DNA from: Parafilimonas terrae
GTDB lineage: Bacteria; Bacteroidota; Bacteroidia; Chitinophagales; Chitinophagaceae
Reading direction: 5' to 3'
NCBI RefSeq assembly: GCF_900115755.1
Contig: NZ_FOXQ01000001.1
Location: 620,001 to 684,000, forward strand
DNA length: 64,000 bases
The position numbers and the translations under genes were made by a program. Of the stretch, positions 2,373 through 55,534 are shown one piece after another; positions within the stretch are counted from its first letter, which is position 1; every line of letters begins with the position of its first letter. The notes under the pieces are model-generated. The model was not told the origin of the DNA. It saw only the letters and a list, made by a program, of their open reading frames with translations, and searched no databases.

Positions 2373-2452
2373 ATGAAACTGTGCATGAAATTTTTTAAAC
2401 AGCAGAACGCACATAACGAGGTTTCATGAGATAATTGAAAAAATTTGTACGA
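2373..2452 (+). promoter_or_regulatory. Leader element copy 1 (ATGAAAC stem, mini-ORF, TACGA-start)
   Basis: Copy 1 of a repeated leader found four times in this window. ATGAAAC (2373-2379) pairs perfectly with GTTTCAT (2421-2427) across a 41-base loop. A 25-base A-rich spacer containing ATTGAAAAAA and ending TACGA then leads directly to the tetR ATG. The first arm opens an 18-codon mini-ORF (MKLCMKFFKQQNAHNEVS) whose TGA overlaps the second arm. The stretch GCACATAACGAGGTTTCATGA is nearly identical to copies 2 and 3. Function is unknown; RNA-level control of initiation is inferred. Confidence 0.6.
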
Positions 2453-3070
2453 ATGAAAGACAAGCGGCAACTGATTATGGAAGCAACTCTTTTTCTTTTT
2501 GCAGAAAAAGGATATGAAGGCACTTCTATAAGAGATATTGCAGAAAAGGCGAATGTGAATGTTGCCATGGTGAATTACTATTTTGGAAGCAAGGAAAAAC
2601 TGTTTGAGAATATCGTAAAGCTCAAATCGTCCACCACGCGGCTGCAGCTTGATGAAATAGCCAGTAATAAATCGCTCACCTCCATTGAAAAAGTGGAAAT
2701 GGTTATTGATTCGTTTATTGAAAGGCTGTTTACGCACAGGGTATTTCACCGCCTTATTCACCAGGAGCTTATTTTAAACCAGCGCGAAGCATTGCAATGT
2801 TCTATTGTTGATAATCTTTTGCCTAATGCTTCCATCATAAAACAGGTTATAGAAACAGGTATTAAAAAAGGTGAATTTAAAAAAGTTGATGTGGAGTCAA
2901 CCATCGCAACATTAATAGGAACAATCAACCAGATTTTACTCTCAAAAAAAATGTGTAACAGGCTCATGGGTAAGCCCGACGATTACGTGCCTTATGAAGA
3001 TGCGAAATTTAAAAAACGTGTGTCGGTGCATTTAAAGCAACTGATGCATGCCCATCTTTCAAACAAATAA
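2453..3070 (+). CDS. TetR/AcrR family transcriptional regulator of efflux operon
   Basis: A one-component repressor of about 205 residues. The N-terminal helix-turn-helix is clear: FAEKGYEGTSIRDIAEKANV, then NVAMVNYYFGSKEKLFENIV, the canonical TetR recognition helix with the YYFGSK signature. The C-terminal ligand and dimer domain is divergent, as usual, so no inducer can be named. I prefer the ATG at 2453, which follows the TACGA of the leader element; an in-frame TTG at 2435 would add six residues. It is followed after 15 bases by the HlyD-type gene and precedes the DHA2 and TolC genes, so it most likely represses this efflux system through the palindrome at 2313-2349. Confidence 0.92.
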   Translation: MKDKRQLIMEATLFLFAEKGYEGTSIRDIAEKANVNVAMVNYYFGSKEKLFENIVKLKSSTTRLQLDEIASNKSLTSIEKVEMVIDSFIERLFTHRVFHRLIHQELILNQREALQCSIVDNLLPNASIIKQVIETGIKKGEFKKVDVESTIATLIGTINQILLSKKMCNRLMGKPDDYVPYEDAKFKKRVSVHLKQLMHAHLSNK

Positions 3071-6010: not shown

Positions 6011-6038
6011 ATAAAATTTAAACTGAAAAAATATACGA

Positions 6039-6126
6039 ATGAAACCGAGCATGATAATTTTTCTCATATAAGGGGAATGCACATAGCGAGGTTCCATGAA
6101 ACCATTAAAAAATAAAACTAGTACGA
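6039..6126 (+). promoter_or_regulatory. Leader element copy 2, before tolC
   Basis: ATGAAACC (6039-6046) can pair with GGTTCCAT (6090-6097) with one A-C mismatch. A 29-base A-rich spacer ending AGTACGA then abuts the tolC ATG. The first arm starts a 10-codon mini-ORF (MKPSMIIFLI). Over more than 100 bases this copy is very similar to copy 3 at 49.4 kb, including GGGGAATGCACATAGCGAGG. The first arm is itself preceded by GAAAAAATATACGA, a second version of the spacer/start module. Confidence 0.6.
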
Positions 6127-7413
6127 ATGAAAAAGCATTTAATAACATTCACATTGTTGTATGCTTCTGTAATAGCCAATGCACAAACACCTGTAAATAG
6201 TGAATTGAAAAATATTATCAACCAGTCATTCACTTATTATCCAAAAGTGCAGGAAGCCCAAAATCAAATTGACATTGCACAAAAACGCATTGATGCAGCT
6301 AAAACAAACCTGCCAACAGTTGATTTGAACGGCAGTTATGAATATCTGCAGCCTAAAATTACTTTACCGCTTGAAGTTAACGGGCAAAAACAAAATTTCC
6401 AGTTTGCGCCTGTACACAATTTCAATGCAAATGTGGGCGCTCAATATATGCTGCTTGATTTTGGAAGATTAAAAGCCAACGTTGATAAATCGAAAGCCGA
6501 TCTTAAATATGCTGCAGATAATGTAAGCAATGTACAAACACAACTAGCAAGCCAGGTAGCCAATATTTATTACAACATTATTTATTTCAGGAAAGCTATT
6601 GCGGTTGAAGACAGCGTTTTAAATTATCTTAATGCCAATAAAAGCATTGCAGAAAACAAATTAAAAAACGGCGATGCTATTAAGCTTGATGTATTGAACC
6701 TTCAGTCGCAGGTGGATAATGAAATCAATTTAAGAGAAGACCTTTTAAACAACCTGCAAAAGCAAATTACATTGCTGCAATACACAACAGGTAACACCAA
6801 TATTGCCAGCAATGGTTTCAATTTCGATTTGCCCGTTCAAACACCGCAGGATGCTTTTGCAACGGCATCTGCATCCGCGCCTGATTTTTTACTGGCACAG
6901 GATAAAATTGAACAAGCCAAAGCTGATTTAAAAGTAGTGAGGCAAACAGATAAACCCAGTATTACATTAAATGGTTCAGCAGGCGTAAAGAATGGTTATG
7001 TACCTAATGTAAATGAAGGCCGTTTTAATTATGCCGGCGGTGTGAGTTTAAAAGTGCCGCTGTTTGATGCCAAAACAAAAAAGCAAATTGCTGTTGCAGA
7101 AGCACAGGTAAAACAAAACCAGTTGGCACAGGAAAGCCTGAACAATGAATACCAGCAAAACATTCAGCAGGCGTTAACGGATATTCAAACCAATGCAGAA
7201 AAATTAAAGAATATGAAAAGCCAGATTGAAAATGCTGAAGCCGCTGTGCAGATTGCATCCAGCCGTTATTTGAATGGTATTGGTTTGAACACAGACATTA
7301 CAGATGCTGCCGTGAATTTGCAACGCGCTTTATTAACCGGGCTGCGTTATGAATACCAACTGGCTTTGGCAAAAGTGGAATATGCAAGGGTTACAGGATA
7401 CAAGTATTGGTAG
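6127..7413 (+). CDS. TolC family outer-membrane efflux channel
   Basis: A 428-residue outer-membrane factor for the pump encoded upstream. It has a signal peptide (MKKHLITFTLLYASVIANAQ) and the two OEP halves. The first contains YYPKVQEAQNQIDIAQKRIDAAKTNLP and a YMLLDFGR strand; the second contains APDFLLAQDKIEQAKADLKVVRQTDKP and VPLFDAKTKKQIAVAEAQVKQ. The long alanine- and glutamine-rich helices are those of the TolC periplasmic barrel. Length is normal. It is separated from the transporter gene by a hairpin and a leader element and is followed by a strong terminator, so it closes the efflux locus. Confidence 0.94.
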   Translation: MKKHLITFTLLYASVIANAQTPVNSELKNIINQSFTYYPKVQEAQNQIDIAQKRIDAAKTNLPTVDLNGSYEYLQPKITLPLEVNGQKQNFQFAPVHNFNANVGAQYMLLDFGRLKANVDKSKADLKYAADNVSNVQTQLASQVANIYYNIIYFRKAIAVEDSVLNYLNANKSIAENKLKNGDAIKLDVLNLQSQVDNEINLREDLLNNLQKQITLLQYTTGNTNIASNGFNFDLPVQTPQDAFATASASAPDFLLAQDKIEQAKADLKVVRQTDKPSITLNGSAGVKNGYVPNVNEGRFNYAGGVSLKVPLFDAKTKKQIAVAEAQVKQNQLAQESLNNEYQQNIQQALTDIQTNAEKLKNMKSQIENAEAAVQIASSRYLNGIGLNTDITDAAVNLQRALLTGLRYEYQLALAKVEYARVTGYKYW

Positions 7414-48056: not shown

Positions 48057-49370
48057 TTAATATCTTCTGAATGCCCATTTCCACATTTCTTTCCAGGATG
48101 GTTTCTTTCCATACATTAAAATACCTGTGCGGTAAACTTTGCCGGCGAACCAGGTTGTGAAAATAAACCCTACTATAAGCAGGCCCATGCTGGTAAGCAA
48201 TTGCCAGACAGGCACCACATCGCCCACGCCATGCGCTATTCTTGCCATCATTACAATGGGTGAAAACAAAGGGAACAGGCTTCCAAATACAGCAAGGCCG
48301 CTGGTTGGTTCATTCACTGCTTTTGTCATAATAACAATACCAAAAATGATAGGCATGGTGATGGGCAGCATAAGGCTTTGTGCATCTTGCGGGTCTTCGT
48401 TCACTGCGCTGCCCACGCAGGCAAACAGTGATGAATATAACAGGTAGCCACCGATGAAATAAAATATAAAACAGCCCAGTATTAAAGGCATATTAATATT
48501 TACGTTGCCGATCAAACCCGAATTTTTCAATGTATCAGCCGCTTGCATAGCACCGTTTTGCATATTCGAATCATGCATTTGCGCTGCCAGTTGCGGAAAT
48601 ATTAATGGTAAAAGAAAATTGAGGCTCGTCATTAAAATAATCCAGATGATAAACTGCACAAGCCCCACTGCACCGATGCCTAATATTTTACCCATCATTA
48701 ATTGAAAGGGTTTTACGCTGCTTACAATTACTTCTGCAATGCGGCTTACTTTTTCTTCCATTACACCGCGCATAACCATAGCGCCGTAAATAAACAGTAC
48801 TATATAAATAAGGAACCCGGAAACATACCCAATGGCATAGCTCATTCCAATTTCTTCACCGGAATCGTTTTTGCCTTCAACGGTTGAAAACTGTATGTTG
48901 CCTTCCTTTTTAGCACTGTCTAATTGCGCAGGGGAAATGTTCAATGCGAGTAAACGTTGCTGTTCCAATGCAGCATTCAGTTTATCTTCAATTTTTCCAC
49001 GCGACATTAAACCAACGGATTTCTGCGTAACAATTGATATGTTTATTTTGTCAAGAATATTTGCATTGGCCGGAATGATAGCATAACCCTGGTACTTATC
49101 TTTTTCTATATCCTGTTTTAAAGACTGCTCATCTTCGCCCTTTACAAAACTGAAACTGATATTTTCATCGCCTTCCAGTTTATTATTAAAAACATTGGCC
49201 TCATCGGCTACGGCTATGTTATATTTTTCATCGCTGTTTACAGAAAAATAAATAATCATGGCATAAAAGCCGAAAAACAATAAAGGCAGTAAAATAGTGG
49301 TGAGTAAAAATGTTTTCTTTTGAACGCGGGTTAAAAATTCACGGCGTGCAATTAAAGCTATCTTATTCAT
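48057..49370 (-). CDS. ABC-2 type exporter permease (NatB-like)
   Basis: A 437-residue permease with an N-terminal helix (TFLLTTILLPLLFFGFYAMIIYF), a large extracytoplasmic domain of about 150 residues (DEKYNIAVADEANVF to SAKKEGNIQFSTVEG) and five to six C-terminal helices. A family motif is VMRGVMEEKVSRIAEVIVSSVKPFQLMMGKILG, typical of NatB/ABC-2 permeases. The ATPase is encoded directly upstream. The gene is separated from it by leader element copy 3, whose TACGA abuts this ATG, so it may be regulated separately from the ATPase. Exported substrate unknown; relatives are linked to Na+ or antibiotic export. Confidence 0.93.
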   Translation of the reverse strand: MNKIALIARREFLTRVQKKTFLLTTILLPLLFFGFYAMIIYFSVNSDEKYNIAVADEANVFNNKLEGDENISFSFVKGEDEQSLKQDIEKDKYQGYAIIPANANILDKINISIVTQKSVGLMSRGKIEDKLNAALEQQRLLALNISPAQLDSAKKEGNIQFSTVEGKNDSGEEIGMSYAIGYVSGFLIYIVLFIYGAMVMRGVMEEKVSRIAEVIVSSVKPFQLMMGKILGIGAVGLVQFIIWIILMTSLNFLLPLIFPQLAAQMHDSNMQNGAMQAADTLKNSGLIGNVNINMPLILGCFIFYFIGGYLLYSSLFACVGSAVNEDPQDAQSLMLPITMPIIFGIVIMTKAVNEPTSGLAVFGSLFPLFSPIVMMARIAHGVGDVVPVWQLLTSMGLLIVGFIFTTWFAGKVYRTGILMYGKKPSWKEMWKWAFRRY

Positions 49371-49490
49371 TCGTACATATTTGTTTTTTCAATGGCCTCA
49401 TGGAACCTCGCTATGTGCATTCCCCTGCATAGGAAAAATTATCGGGCTCGGTTTCATTCGTACATATTTGTTTTTTCAATGGCCCCGTAC
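49371..49490 (-). promoter_or_regulatory. Leader element copy 3, between ABC ATPase and permease genes
   Basis: On the minus strand the permease ATG is preceded by a 29-base spacer ending ATATGTACGA. The second arm GTTCCAT (49406-49400) and first arm ATGAAAC (49457-49451) pair with one mismatch across 44 bases. The first arm begins a 19-codon mini-ORF (MKPSPIIFPMQGNAHSEVP) and is itself preceded by an exact second copy of ATTGAAAAAACAAATATG plus TACGA. The whole 133-base gap between the genes is this element, nearly the same as copy 2. Confidence 0.65.
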
Positions 49491-53480: not shown

Positions 53481-53566
53481 ATGAAACGCCCATGCAATAT
53501 GTTTATCACACAGAGATGTGGTTAAAGGTGTTTCATTCGGCCATTGAAAAAATAAAATACTTACGA
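53481..53566 (+). promoter_or_regulatory. Leader element copy 4, before the GH20 gene
   Basis: ATGAAAC (53481-53487) pairs perfectly with GTTTCAT (53530-53536) across 42 bases whose sequence differs from the other copies. A 30-base spacer GGCCATTGAAAAAATAAAAT...CTTACGA then abuts the start codon. The first arm opens a 14-codon mini-ORF (MKRPCNMFITQRCG). The stem is kept although the loop is unrelated, which supports a structural role. Confidence 0.6.
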
Positions 53567-55534
53567 ATGAAAAAAACAGTTTTATTCATCGCCTCCTTTT
53601 TTGCCTGCTTAATTGTTTTTGCCCAAACCGACGCTGATATTGCCATTGTGCCTCAACCGGTAAAAGTTACAAAAACAACAGGTTATTTTATGCTGCCTCA
53701 AAATGTAACCATCAATATTGCAAAAACAACAGCGCTTAAACAGGCGGCTGTGCAACTGCAGCAAAGGCTTTCCGTTCCCACAGGTTATAAAGTTTCGCTT
53801 ACAGAAAATGCAGCAACAGCCGTTATCAAACTTGAACTGAATAAAACAGAAGATAAGCAACTCAGCAGTGAAGGCTATCATCTTTCCGTTACGCCAAAAA
53901 CCATTCTTATTAAAGCCAATCAACCTGCCGGGTTATTTTATGGCGTGCAAACATTGCTGCAATTATTTCCGCCTGAAATTGAAGACAGTGTTTTGGTAAG
54001 CAAAACCGAATGGAAAGCACCCTGCGTTGAAATAACAGATTACCCGCGTTTTGGATGGCGGGGTTTAATGCTCGATGTATCGCGGCACTTTTTTACCAAG
54101 AACGAAGTGAAGGATTATATTGACCAGATGGCAAAATATAAACTCAATCTTTTGCACTGGCATTTAACGGATGATGAAGGCTGGCGCATTGAAATTAAGA
54201 GCCTGCCCAAACTTACAGAAGTAGGCGCCTGGAGCGTGCCCCGTGTTGGCCAGTTTGGCACGTTCGCAGCACCTTCGCCCGATGAGCCAAAAACAAACGG
54301 CGGCTTTTATACACAGGATGATATTAAAGAAGTGGTGCAATATGCAAAAGACAGGTTTGTAAATATTTTACCTGAGGTGGATGTGCCCGGCCACAGCATG
54401 GCAGCCATTGCAGCTTATCCTGAACTTTCCTGTTCCGGCGGTGTAAAGAATATTGGTGTTACATCAGGCGAATCCATAAAAGACTGGGGAACGCACACCG
54501 CTATTTACGATGACAATCTTTGCCCGGCTAATGAAAATGTATATGAATTCCTGGATAAGGTAGTAGGAGAAATTGCGCAGTTGTTTCCATTTGAATACAT
54601 TCACATGGGCGGCGATGAAACCTTTAAAACTTTCTGGGAAAGCAGCGATGCTGTAAAAGCTTTAATGCAAAAAGAGCATTTAAAAACAATGGAAGAAGTG
54701 CAGAGTTACTTCAGCAAAAGGCTTGAAAAAATTGTTGAATCAAAAGGCAAAAAGTTCATGGGCTGGGATGAAATACTGGAAGGCGGCCTTGCACCCAACG
54801 CCGCTGTAATGAGCTGGCGCGGCGCACATGATGGCAATGCCCCCGCAAACGGGCAGCCTATACCAAACGGTGGTGTGGCGGCTGCCAGGCTGGGCCACAA
54901 TGTTGTAATGAGCCCTACTGAATTTGTATATCTTGATTACATGCAAAGCGACCGCATTATGGAGCCGCATGTATATGCATCATTGCGTTTAAATAAAGTG
55001 TATAGTTTTGATCCTATGCCAGCCGGCCTTACTGCCAGCGAACAAAAATATGTGCTTGGTGCGCAGGGCAATTTATGGACGGAACAAATTTATAATTACC
55101 GACAGGTAGAATATATGACATGGCCGCGTGCATTTGCTATTGCTGAAGACACATGGTCGCCAAACGAAAGCAAAAACTGGGATGATTTTGTACGCCGTGT
55201 GGAGGCACAGTTTAAACGCTTTAATGTGGCAGAAGTAAAGTATGCACCCAGCATGTACGATCCGCAGTTTATTATAAACAAAACCAGCGATACTTCATTT
55301 ACGGTTGAGTTAAAGAACGAAGTGAATGGCCTGGATATTTATTACAGTTTTGATAATTCTTATCCCGACAGGTTTTATCCCAAATACACACAGCCATTAA
55401 CTATTCCGAAAGAAGCAACACAATTAAAAGTTATTACGTACAGGGGCATGCAACCTATCGGCAGAATGATCTCCATGCCTGTAAGCGAATTGGTGGAAAG
55501 AGCAAAAGTGAAAAAGCCTTACTGGATAAAGTAA
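53567..55534 (+). CDS. Secreted beta-N-acetylhexosaminidase (GH20)
   Basis: A 655-residue exported exo-hexosaminidase that removes terminal GlcNAc/GalNAc. The ATG at 53567, directly after TACGA of the leader element, starts a signal peptide (MKKTVLFIASFFACLIVFAQ). Domains in order are GH20b (IAIVPQPVKVTKTTGYF to FYGVQTLLQLFP) and the GH20 barrel starting DYPRFGWRGLMLDVSRHFF with LLHWHLTDDEGWRIEI. The catalytic Asp-Glu pair lies in YIHMGGDETFKTFWE, GWDEILEGGLAPNAAVMSWRG and the QGNLWTEQIYNYRQVEYMTWPR end motif. A C-terminal chitobiase-like beta domain (VELKNEVNGLDIYYSFDNSYP) follows. It is first in a plus-strand set of glycan genes. Confidence 0.96.
   Translation: MKKTVLFIASFFACLIVFAQTDADIAIVPQPVKVTKTTGYFMLPQNVTINIAKTTALKQAAVQLQQRLSVPTGYKVSLTENAATAVIKLELNKTEDKQLSSEGYHLSVTPKTILIKANQPAGLFYGVQTLLQLFPPEIEDSVLVSKTEWKAPCVEITDYPRFGWRGLMLDVSRHFFTKNEVKDYIDQMAKYKLNLLHWHLTDDEGWRIEIKSLPKLTEVGAWSVPRVGQFGTFAAPSPDEPKTNGGFYTQDDIKEVVQYAKDRFVNILPEVDVPGHSMAAIAAYPELSCSGGVKNIGVTSGESIKDWGTHTAIYDDNLCPANENVYEFLDKVVGEIAQLFPFEYIHMGGDETFKTFWESSDAVKALMQKEHLKTMEEVQSYFSKRLEKIVESKGKKFMGWDEILEGGLAPNAAVMSWRGAHDGNAPANGQPIPNGGVAAARLGHNVVMSPTEFVYLDYMQSDRIMEPHVYASLRLNKVYSFDPMPAGLTASEQKYVLGAQGNLWTEQIYNYRQVEYMTWPRAFAIAEDTWSPNESKNWDDFVRRVEAQFKRFNVAEVKYAPSMYDPQFIINKTSDTSFTVELKNEVNGLDIYYSFDNSYPDRFYPKYTQPLTIPKEATQLKVITYRGMQPIGRMISMPVSELVERAKVKKPYWIK

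Follow-up and report, generated by a model that had tools for sequence, protein, structure and literature searches.

Four copies of a short leader element, each ending exactly on the start codon of a gene, are present in a stretch of 64,000 nucleotides (nt) of the Parafilimonas terrae genome (assembly GCF_900115755.1, contig NZ_FOXQ01000001.1, positions 620,001 to 684,000; this whole stretch is referred to as the window). Here we propose, with considerable confidence, that these copies belong to a family of short, apparently non-coding mobile elements of the Chitinophagaceae and at least one relative, which insert in a single orientation at ATGAA(A) start codons. The initial annotation of the window had placed the copies before four unrelated genes, and the window sequence confirms this: including the ATGAA of the gene, the copies span 2373-2457 (+), 6039-6131 (+), 49366-49457 (-) and 53481-53571 (+), and the genes behind them have Pfam matches to TetR_N, OEP (outer membrane efflux, TolC type), ABC2_membrane_3 and Glyco_hydro_20. 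Exact ATGAAAC..GTTTCAT arms were found at two places in the window, namely in copies 1 and 4; shuffled sequences predict 0.02. Two covariance models were used, R1, built from 15 copies, and R2, built from 77 copies of many genera. The features in the window are the following:

2373..2452, plus strand: copy 1 unit, from its left ATGAA to the base before the start (2453) of the TetR-family gene (R1, E 2.1e-9; Pfam)
2420..2430, plus strand: 3' arm of copy 1, GGTTTCAT (2420-2427) and then GAG, which faces the left arm (2373-2379) and the gene start CGAATG (2450-2455)
6016..6038, plus strand: right-end remnant of an additional unit just before copy 2 (direct repeat)
6039..6126, plus strand: copy 2 unit before the TolC-like gene (start 6127), with the 3' arm GGTTCCAT at 6090-6097 (R1, E 1.5e-13; Pfam)
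49371..49457, minus strand: copy 3 unit, preceding an ABC-2 transporter gene whose start codon is at 49370-49368 (R1, E 5.5e-13; Pfam)
49407-49400, minus strand: 3' arm of copy 3, GGTTCCAT
49458..49490, minus strand: right-end remnant of an additional unit just before copy 3 (32-nt perfect direct repeat; R1)
53481..53566, plus strand: copy 4, a second-subfamily unit before the glycoside hydrolase family 20 (GH20) gene (start 53567) (R1, E 3.2e-7; Pfam)
53530-53536, plus strand: 3' arm of copy 4, GTTTCAT; CATTCG at 53534-53539 matches CGAATG at 53564-53569

Copy 4 had been described as keeping the stem around an unrelated loop. The stem is indeed kept, but the loop is that of a second subfamily (ATGAAACGCCCATG..), which has a matching 3' arm of its own.

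Comparison of filled and empty sites demonstrates a base-exact gain at start codons. In orthologues without a unit, the native 5' leader runs directly into the start codon, and in filled genes the native leader is followed by one unit and then by the start codon again. Twelve genes were queried; two of them, gnd and an ilvD-like gene, were excluded for want of close relatives, and L138 was omitted as an odd match. For ten filled genes of the home genome (G000), 44 of the 45 loci of same-genus relatives have no R2 match beside the start, although one of the 44, L161, has just 21 nt of upstream DNA and is uninformative; the exception is a fumarylacetoacetase-like gene in G006 that carries a decayed unit of another type. 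Leader and start align across the junction with relatives for ispD, mqnA, a response regulator gene and gene 14. Thus, ispD reads ..ttttctttacccg, unit, ATGAAAAAATATGCGG in the home genome and ..ctttctttacctt ATGAAAAAATATGCGG in G003, and the response regulator gene reads ..acagtttatttaaagctgctgta, two units, ATGAAA in the home genome and ..acagtttatttaaaattgctgta ATGAAG in G004. The clearest example is a Chitinophaga gene found in 17 of 60 genomes, which matched the unit in two of them (3 loci) and gave no match in 15; leader and gene meet at the junction in near empty loci (L289, L290 and L292), and the three most distant of the 15 empty loci do not align at the start.

Because the leader of orthologues without a unit lies directly at the start codon, we regard the unit as a mobile element and not as the leader of a regulon. 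A leader shared by a regulon was rejected, given that the target genes are unrelated and that their relatives mostly lack the unit. The same reasoning bears on the mini-ORF (open reading frame) opened by the first arm, which the initial annotation had listed as a feature of every copy. Since the element is inserted at the native start codon, the mini-ORF begins with the former start codon or with a copy of it, so that no regulatory upstream ORF has to be assumed. The start of the mini-ORF is not strictly kept among the 191 distinct copies, most of which begin with ATGAAAC (110) or ATGAAAT (49) and the others with ATAAA, GTGAA etc. The upstream ORFs that start at the left ATG run for 4 to 30-odd codons in various frames, and therefore no peptide is conserved as such.

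A few insertions are shared between relatives. In addition, for each of five genes, the start is occupied by a unit or a remnant in two species, the subfamily differing between them; we take these genes to encode a TolC-like protein (C32:626039/L211), an MNYEK/TPSG lipoprotein (C22:33860/L197), a TSFWQRMGFHEW protein (C37:76269/L252), a fumarylacetoacetase-like protein (C27:46566/L155) and a DnaN-like protein (C18:95590/L241). Such same-start units of different subfamilies may be independent hits or old sites that were overwritten.

Placement was scored with a strict rule, in which a copy ends on an ATGAA or GTGAA that opens an ORF of at least 60 amino acids; the 9 weakest of the 101 A3 rows and repeated rows were left out. 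This rule holds for 71 of the 76 distinct copies of the home genome, for 27/27 copies of other genera, for 43 of 52 copies in same-genus genomes and for 21 of 33 in named records; a looser rule raises the last two counts to 44/52 and 24/33. As the initial annotation had supposed, the matches of the covariance scan are thus not random with respect to starts. Of the 313 ATGAA sites of the window, 255 are in coding sequence, 21 coincide with called starts and 37 lie elsewhere in non-coding DNA, and the placement of non-tandem copies of the home genome at starts (71/74) differs from that of the non-coding ATGAA sites of the window (21/58) with a p of about 8e-28. Copies that do not follow the strict rule include tandem units, which are followed by the next unit, units before short genes, units with an extra insertion that still meet a gene at their right end (L271 and L284) and the likely false match L229. 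Copies are also found at starts inside operons, namely L032, where the upstream gene overlaps, and those at mqnA and the response regulator gene, which shows that promoters are not the recognised feature.

The family is not restricted to the window; in some bacteria of soil and water it has reached dozens of sites. In the covariance scans of the home genome (4.99 Mb, 44 contigs) and of seven same-genus genomes (G001-G007), the best 150 candidates per genome were scored, and the counts are therefore lower bounds. The home genome has at least 69 R1 matches at E<=1 (best 150 of 4801 candidates) and at least 81 R2 matches at E<=0.05 (best 150 of 4398 candidates), at least one of which (L229, within a ligA-like reading frame) looks false. 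For R2, G001 to G007 gave at least 12, 3, 3, 7, 22, 21 and 2 matches, respectively, with some of these assemblies being only 63-67% complete. An R1 scan of 244 Chitinophagaceae genomes, with 17 candidates scored in each, identified the element in at least 15 genomes and at least 12 of 101 genera, our own genome included. The exact pattern of one subfamily was found in 29 stretches among 84,980 named species genomes; the carriers are seven named Chitinophaga strains (C. japonensis most often), Terrimonas pollutisoli, Sediminibacterium magnilacihabitans, metagenome-assembled genomes called Puia, Arachidicoccus and Bacteroidetes bacterium and, as at least one carrier outside the Chitinophagaceae, Agaribacillus aureus (Cytophagales). 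Two exact patterns gave 0 matches each against viral contigs, and one copy had no match among plasmids in a distant-mode search. Without the final ATGAA, the units have a median length of 87 bp (range 45-116), with 137 of 189 measuring 80-95 bp. The dominant subfamily differs from genome to genome, in bursts of different subfamilies.

It might be argued that chance A-rich leaders before the frequent ATGAAA starts were merely aligned by the model, given that the motifs are short and AT-rich, that ATGAAA is common in the phylum and that single folds are unremarkable. We give practically no credence to such an artefact. Pattern searches of the home genome and their reversed controls contradict it: the core pattern gave 17 matches versus 0 (15 of the 17 being the element), the right-end pattern 54 rows versus 1 (43 distinct sites, 11 rows repeating a neighbour) and the left-end pattern 28 versus 0 (3 of the 28 being chance matches in coding sequence). 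The empty sites and the covariation of the stem described below speak against it as well.

Some arrangements of units were observed in passing. Three head-to-tail units, two of them close in sequence, precede one gene at C25:120701-120964, which could show how an array grows. In two sister genomes, units (L201:1501-1593 and L253:659-747) precede similar tiny ORFs (..LYYLCNPI..); in L201 the tiny ORF is followed by a second unit and then by an MDH-like gene, and together with L253 this is a possible shared old array. Several units have a second palindrome within the arm that resembles those of repetitive extragenic palindromic (REP) sequences (GCCCG..CGGGC type), at about the same place, between GGTTC and CAT (L070:993-1108 and L224:474-586, and similarly L061, L067, L071, L230 and L232); two of these were caught by a regular expression and the others were read by eye.

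The initial annotation had noted that the second arm could pair either with the first arm or with the gene start. Both complementarities were found: the arm GTTNCATNNG is able to pair with the ATGAAAC of the left end and, with weaker support, with the CNNATG of the gene start. In alignment A4 (77 copies, 15 of 92 being left out), the left arm ATGAAAC plus five bases faces GTTNCAT with 89.1% of the cells paired, versus 21-36% when slid. The compensatory changes anticipated for the stem do exist, since 52 cells are doubly changed versus 24.4 in shuffled alignments, a number reached in 0/500 shuffles, which ignore the kinship of the copies. By eye, the subfamily forms of the stem include ACCGAGC/GCGAGGT, ACGCCC/GGGCGT and ATGAGCC/GGCGAAT. 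Stem position 4 (A against N) is mismatched in 42 of 51 own copies and in 29 of 30 other copies (11 of the 92 copies were left out of this count because of a palindrome in the arm or a length of <=80 nt); copies 1 and 4 have the minority form, and this A is conserved yet unpaired in most copies. Towards the gene, the CATNNG of the arm faces CNNATG with 79.7% paired versus 10-40% when slid, and there are 18 double changes versus 10.4 shuffled (0/500, the shuffles again ignoring kinship). Examples of such arm and gene-start pairs are CATCCG/CGGATG, CATCTG/CAGATG, CATTTG/CAAATG, CATGTG/CACATG and CATACG/CGTATG. Covariation is thus strong for the stem and moderate for the gene-start pairing.

The bases of the target point in the same direction. 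The target gene has A at base +6 in 67 of 73 own copies versus 15 of 24 unit-free ATGAA starts of the own genome (p 0.0016), and in 78 of 90 other copies versus 20 of 41 Chitinophaga starts (p 8e-6, the two sets coming from different genomes). This preference for ATGAAA fits pairing, as A5 and A6 face the TT of the arm. Moreover, in a C. japonensis copy before a GTG start (L275:2741), both ends read GTG and the arm reads CAC, and in G001 the arm CACCTG faces CAGGTG (L201). A guide complementary to its target, as in a passenger of the IS200/IS605 type, is therefore found as complementarity, not as guidance.

From these data, a mechanism may be outlined. At filled sites, the native 5' leader is retained upstream of the unit, whose left end is an ATGAA, and the ATGAA of the gene is restored by the right end; the gene then begins downstream of the A-rich right end of the element. 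Because the right end remakes this ATGAA, the encoded protein is unchanged. The insertion site may be picked by base pairing of the internal arm 5'-GTTNCATNNG-3' with ATGAAA, and in a joined form (circular or tandem) the entire junction CNNATGAAAC could be paired with the arm, with a single mismatch. By analogy with IS608, we infer that the arm guides insertion. The finding that nearly all copies are at starts, including those internal to operons, suggests that insertion is coupled to exposed start codons, in mRNA or opened DNA, or that selection against other sites is strong. Overall, we lean, if only slightly, towards a new kind of element, in which ATGAAA, on mRNA or single-stranded DNA, is read through base pairing by an internal guide (GTTNCATNNG), the unit of ~87 nt is inserted precisely there, remakes the start and supplies its own initiation region in place of that of the gene, and arm and target can change together (ATG/CAT, GTG/CAC). 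If this is true, essential genes could be entered because the host proteins are unchanged.

Several observations weigh against this interpretation or parts of it. With respect to placement, the starts were counted from mechanical ORF calls within a single 64-kb window; the final ATGAA is part of the models, and its presence is therefore partly built in, although the ORF behind it is not, and the pattern used for the named records, where the rate is lowest (21/33), did not require it. In three cases (L029, L223 and L283) the unit precedes a tiny ORF and the likely gene start is 62-81 nt further on, and ATGAA(A) alone fails to explain why other non-coding ATGAA sites are avoided. With respect to pairing, the number of doubly changed pairs is unremarkable (reached in 294/500 shuffles for the stem and 441/500 for the gene start), as is that of pair types (36/500 and 134/500, respectively). 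The covariation score of the gene-start pairing is 0.103, and two slid versions score 0.102 and 0.096; its commonest own form, CATGAG/CGAATG, is non-standard at two positions (two G-A mismatches); and six single copies, when folded alone, did not clearly outperform shuffles (z -1.87 to 0.01). The reading of ATGAAA would be hard to tell from a preference for A-rich starts, and two own copies (L218 and L219) have CAC arms before ATG starts. With respect to the moving enzyme, the Y1 transposase domain Y1_Tnp (PF01797), the sole enzyme family searched for, was not detected in G087 (100% complete, 6 copies) or G233 (99%, 7 copies); the 30 of 43 Y1 places that were fetched had one weak R2 match (E 0.022) and no clear copy nearby; and the left-end pattern revealed no longer relative with the same left end in the home genome, its three unexplained matches being coding sequence.

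These last results bear on the possibility that the units are passengers of a Y1 (HUH) transposase of the IS200/IS605 or REP type, which would insert 3' of ATGAA in single-stranded DNA. It is consistent with this view that IS608 is described as keeping a tetranucleotide target at its left end and reading it by base pairing (PMC5934647), and that a stem mismatch is kept, as in the REPs of Escherichia coli (PMC8266576). Y1 genes were found in 10 of 14 genomes searched, the home genome included. However, two copy-bearing genomes, which may have lost the gene later, gave no Y1 match; no clear copies lie beside the Y1 genes at the places fetched; there is one main hairpin rather than one at each end, without a GTAG before it in A4 (by eye); and the units sit at start codons and not at ATGAA in general. 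We therefore regard a Y1 passenger as a rather doubtful candidate. Y1 genes flanked by copies were unsupported at the places fetched, and longer relatives with the same left end were unsupported by the left-end pattern search of the home genome. In another genus, G121 has ten Y1 matches of the same score (1.1e-32), apparently an active IS200-type element, and no unit was present beside the five of these Y1 copies that were fetched.

Alternatively, the unit might be borne by RNA, being circular or spliced into mRNA at exposed start codons and later converted back into DNA. Such a route would fit the location of units at translation starts, also within operons (L032, mqnA and the response regulator gene), the predicted ability of the arm to pair with the joined junction and the head-to-tail arrays. 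No reverse transcriptase or ribozyme is linked to the units, neither having been searched for, and known self-splicing introns are much longer than ~87 nt. We consider this route improbable. A bridge RNA of the IS110 type is a further candidate.

Another explanation is that the unit is a cis-regulatory RNA leader, in which CAT pairs either with the left ATG, leaving the gene start free, or with the gene ATG, hiding the start; ribosomes on the short upstream ORF would tip the balance, and the spread would reflect selection for control. Such a leader may be supported by the covariation of both pairings, weaker for the gene start, by the predicted fold of the RNA of one copy, in which the inner stem is accompanied by a hairpin that covers the start codon of the gene, by one insertion shared by two genomes, with about 3/66 differences in the stems and right end versus 6/25 in the loop (by eye, p 0.012), and by promoter-like motifs upstream of units. 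Of 191 copies, 20 have the motif TAnnTTTG in the 60 nt that precede the left end, whereas 2-3 have it inside the element; this suggests that transcription begins upstream of the unit, although few copies are covered. On the other hand, the 44 of 45 loci of relatives without a match (L161 being uninformative), the unrelated target genes, among them what we take from their translations to be housekeeping enzymes, the copies that have lost the left ATG and the partly broken stem of the shared insertion L076 are not what such a leader predicts, and regulation alone leaves the base-exact gain at the start unexplained. As a full account, a regulatory leader seems to us unlikely. Nevertheless, cis-regulation and mobility can both be true, and an effect on translation is possible, in that a CAT that is in place could pair with the left or the right ATG. 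Upstream of the TetR-family gene, the window also contains a near-perfect 18-nt inverted repeat (2313-2349, 94% complementary), which is probably the operator of this gene.

The absence of a described family that matches the element, as stated by the initial annotation, is upheld in that no Rfam model reached its gathering score in the window; ten other loci gave three sub-threshold matches only, to unrelated families (best E 0.23), and no published description of such an element was found in the searches made of the open-licence literature. We rate the element as a categorically new kind, since to our knowledge no known kind of element places itself at start codons. If a Y1 transposase moves it, it would be less new, a variety of an existing kind. 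If the arm guides insertion, the element would be a natural reader of start codons by base pairing and would offer a tool for placing leaders at chosen starts; its insertions would also serve as a natural experiment in how translation is initiated in the absence of Shine-Dalgarno sequences, which this phylum lacks (PMC6847099). Genome annotation is affected as well: the additional ATGAAA left upstream by each copy could wrongly be called a start.

IS200/IS605 elements such as IS608 resemble the present element in inserting 3' of a short target that is kept at the left end, in reading this target by pairing with an internal guide and in having a circular junction (PMC5934647). In contrast to them, our element has no Y1 gene that is linked or always detected, one hairpin, one arm that faces both junctions, and nearly all of its copies at start codons. 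The REP sequences and TnpA_REP share the short, many-copy hairpin repeats with meaningful stem mismatches, and a tetranucleotide has been proposed as their guide (PMC8266576); here, there is no GTAG before the palindrome (alignment by eye), ATGAA is present at both ends and the units are at starts. The TAACTGA direct repeats of Beggiatoaceae and other bacteria likewise lie a few nt upstream of the starts of unrelated genes and have a patchy spread that includes five Bacteroidetes, but they are arrays of heptamers without a hairpin unit, and base-exact insertion and a covarying arm are not described in the abstract (PMC4679880). Miniature inverted-repeat transposable elements (MITEs) and other short bacterial repeats are similarly short, non-coding, multi-copy and mobile; they differ in that no matching terminal inverted repeats were seen here (A4, by eye) and in the base-exact placement at starts. 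The ATGAA at both ends of our units may be either a target-site duplication or element sequence.

Further comparison can be made with the HEARO/IscB-associated RNAs, HEARO favouring ATGA, with the bridge RNA of IS110, whose loops pair with donor and target, with integron attC sites, which recombine as a folded strand, and with mobile bypassing elements and Rickettsia palindromic elements, which insert into genes without destroying them. We know of none of these that is placed at start codons, and compared with them the units described here are shorter, have other core sequences and lack an Rfam match in the window and the ten other loci. Bacterial mobile elements usually avoid harm by inserting between genes; this element, instead, arrives at the base where a gene is most sensitive, which it repairs on landing, in dozens of genes per genome, probably including housekeeping genes.
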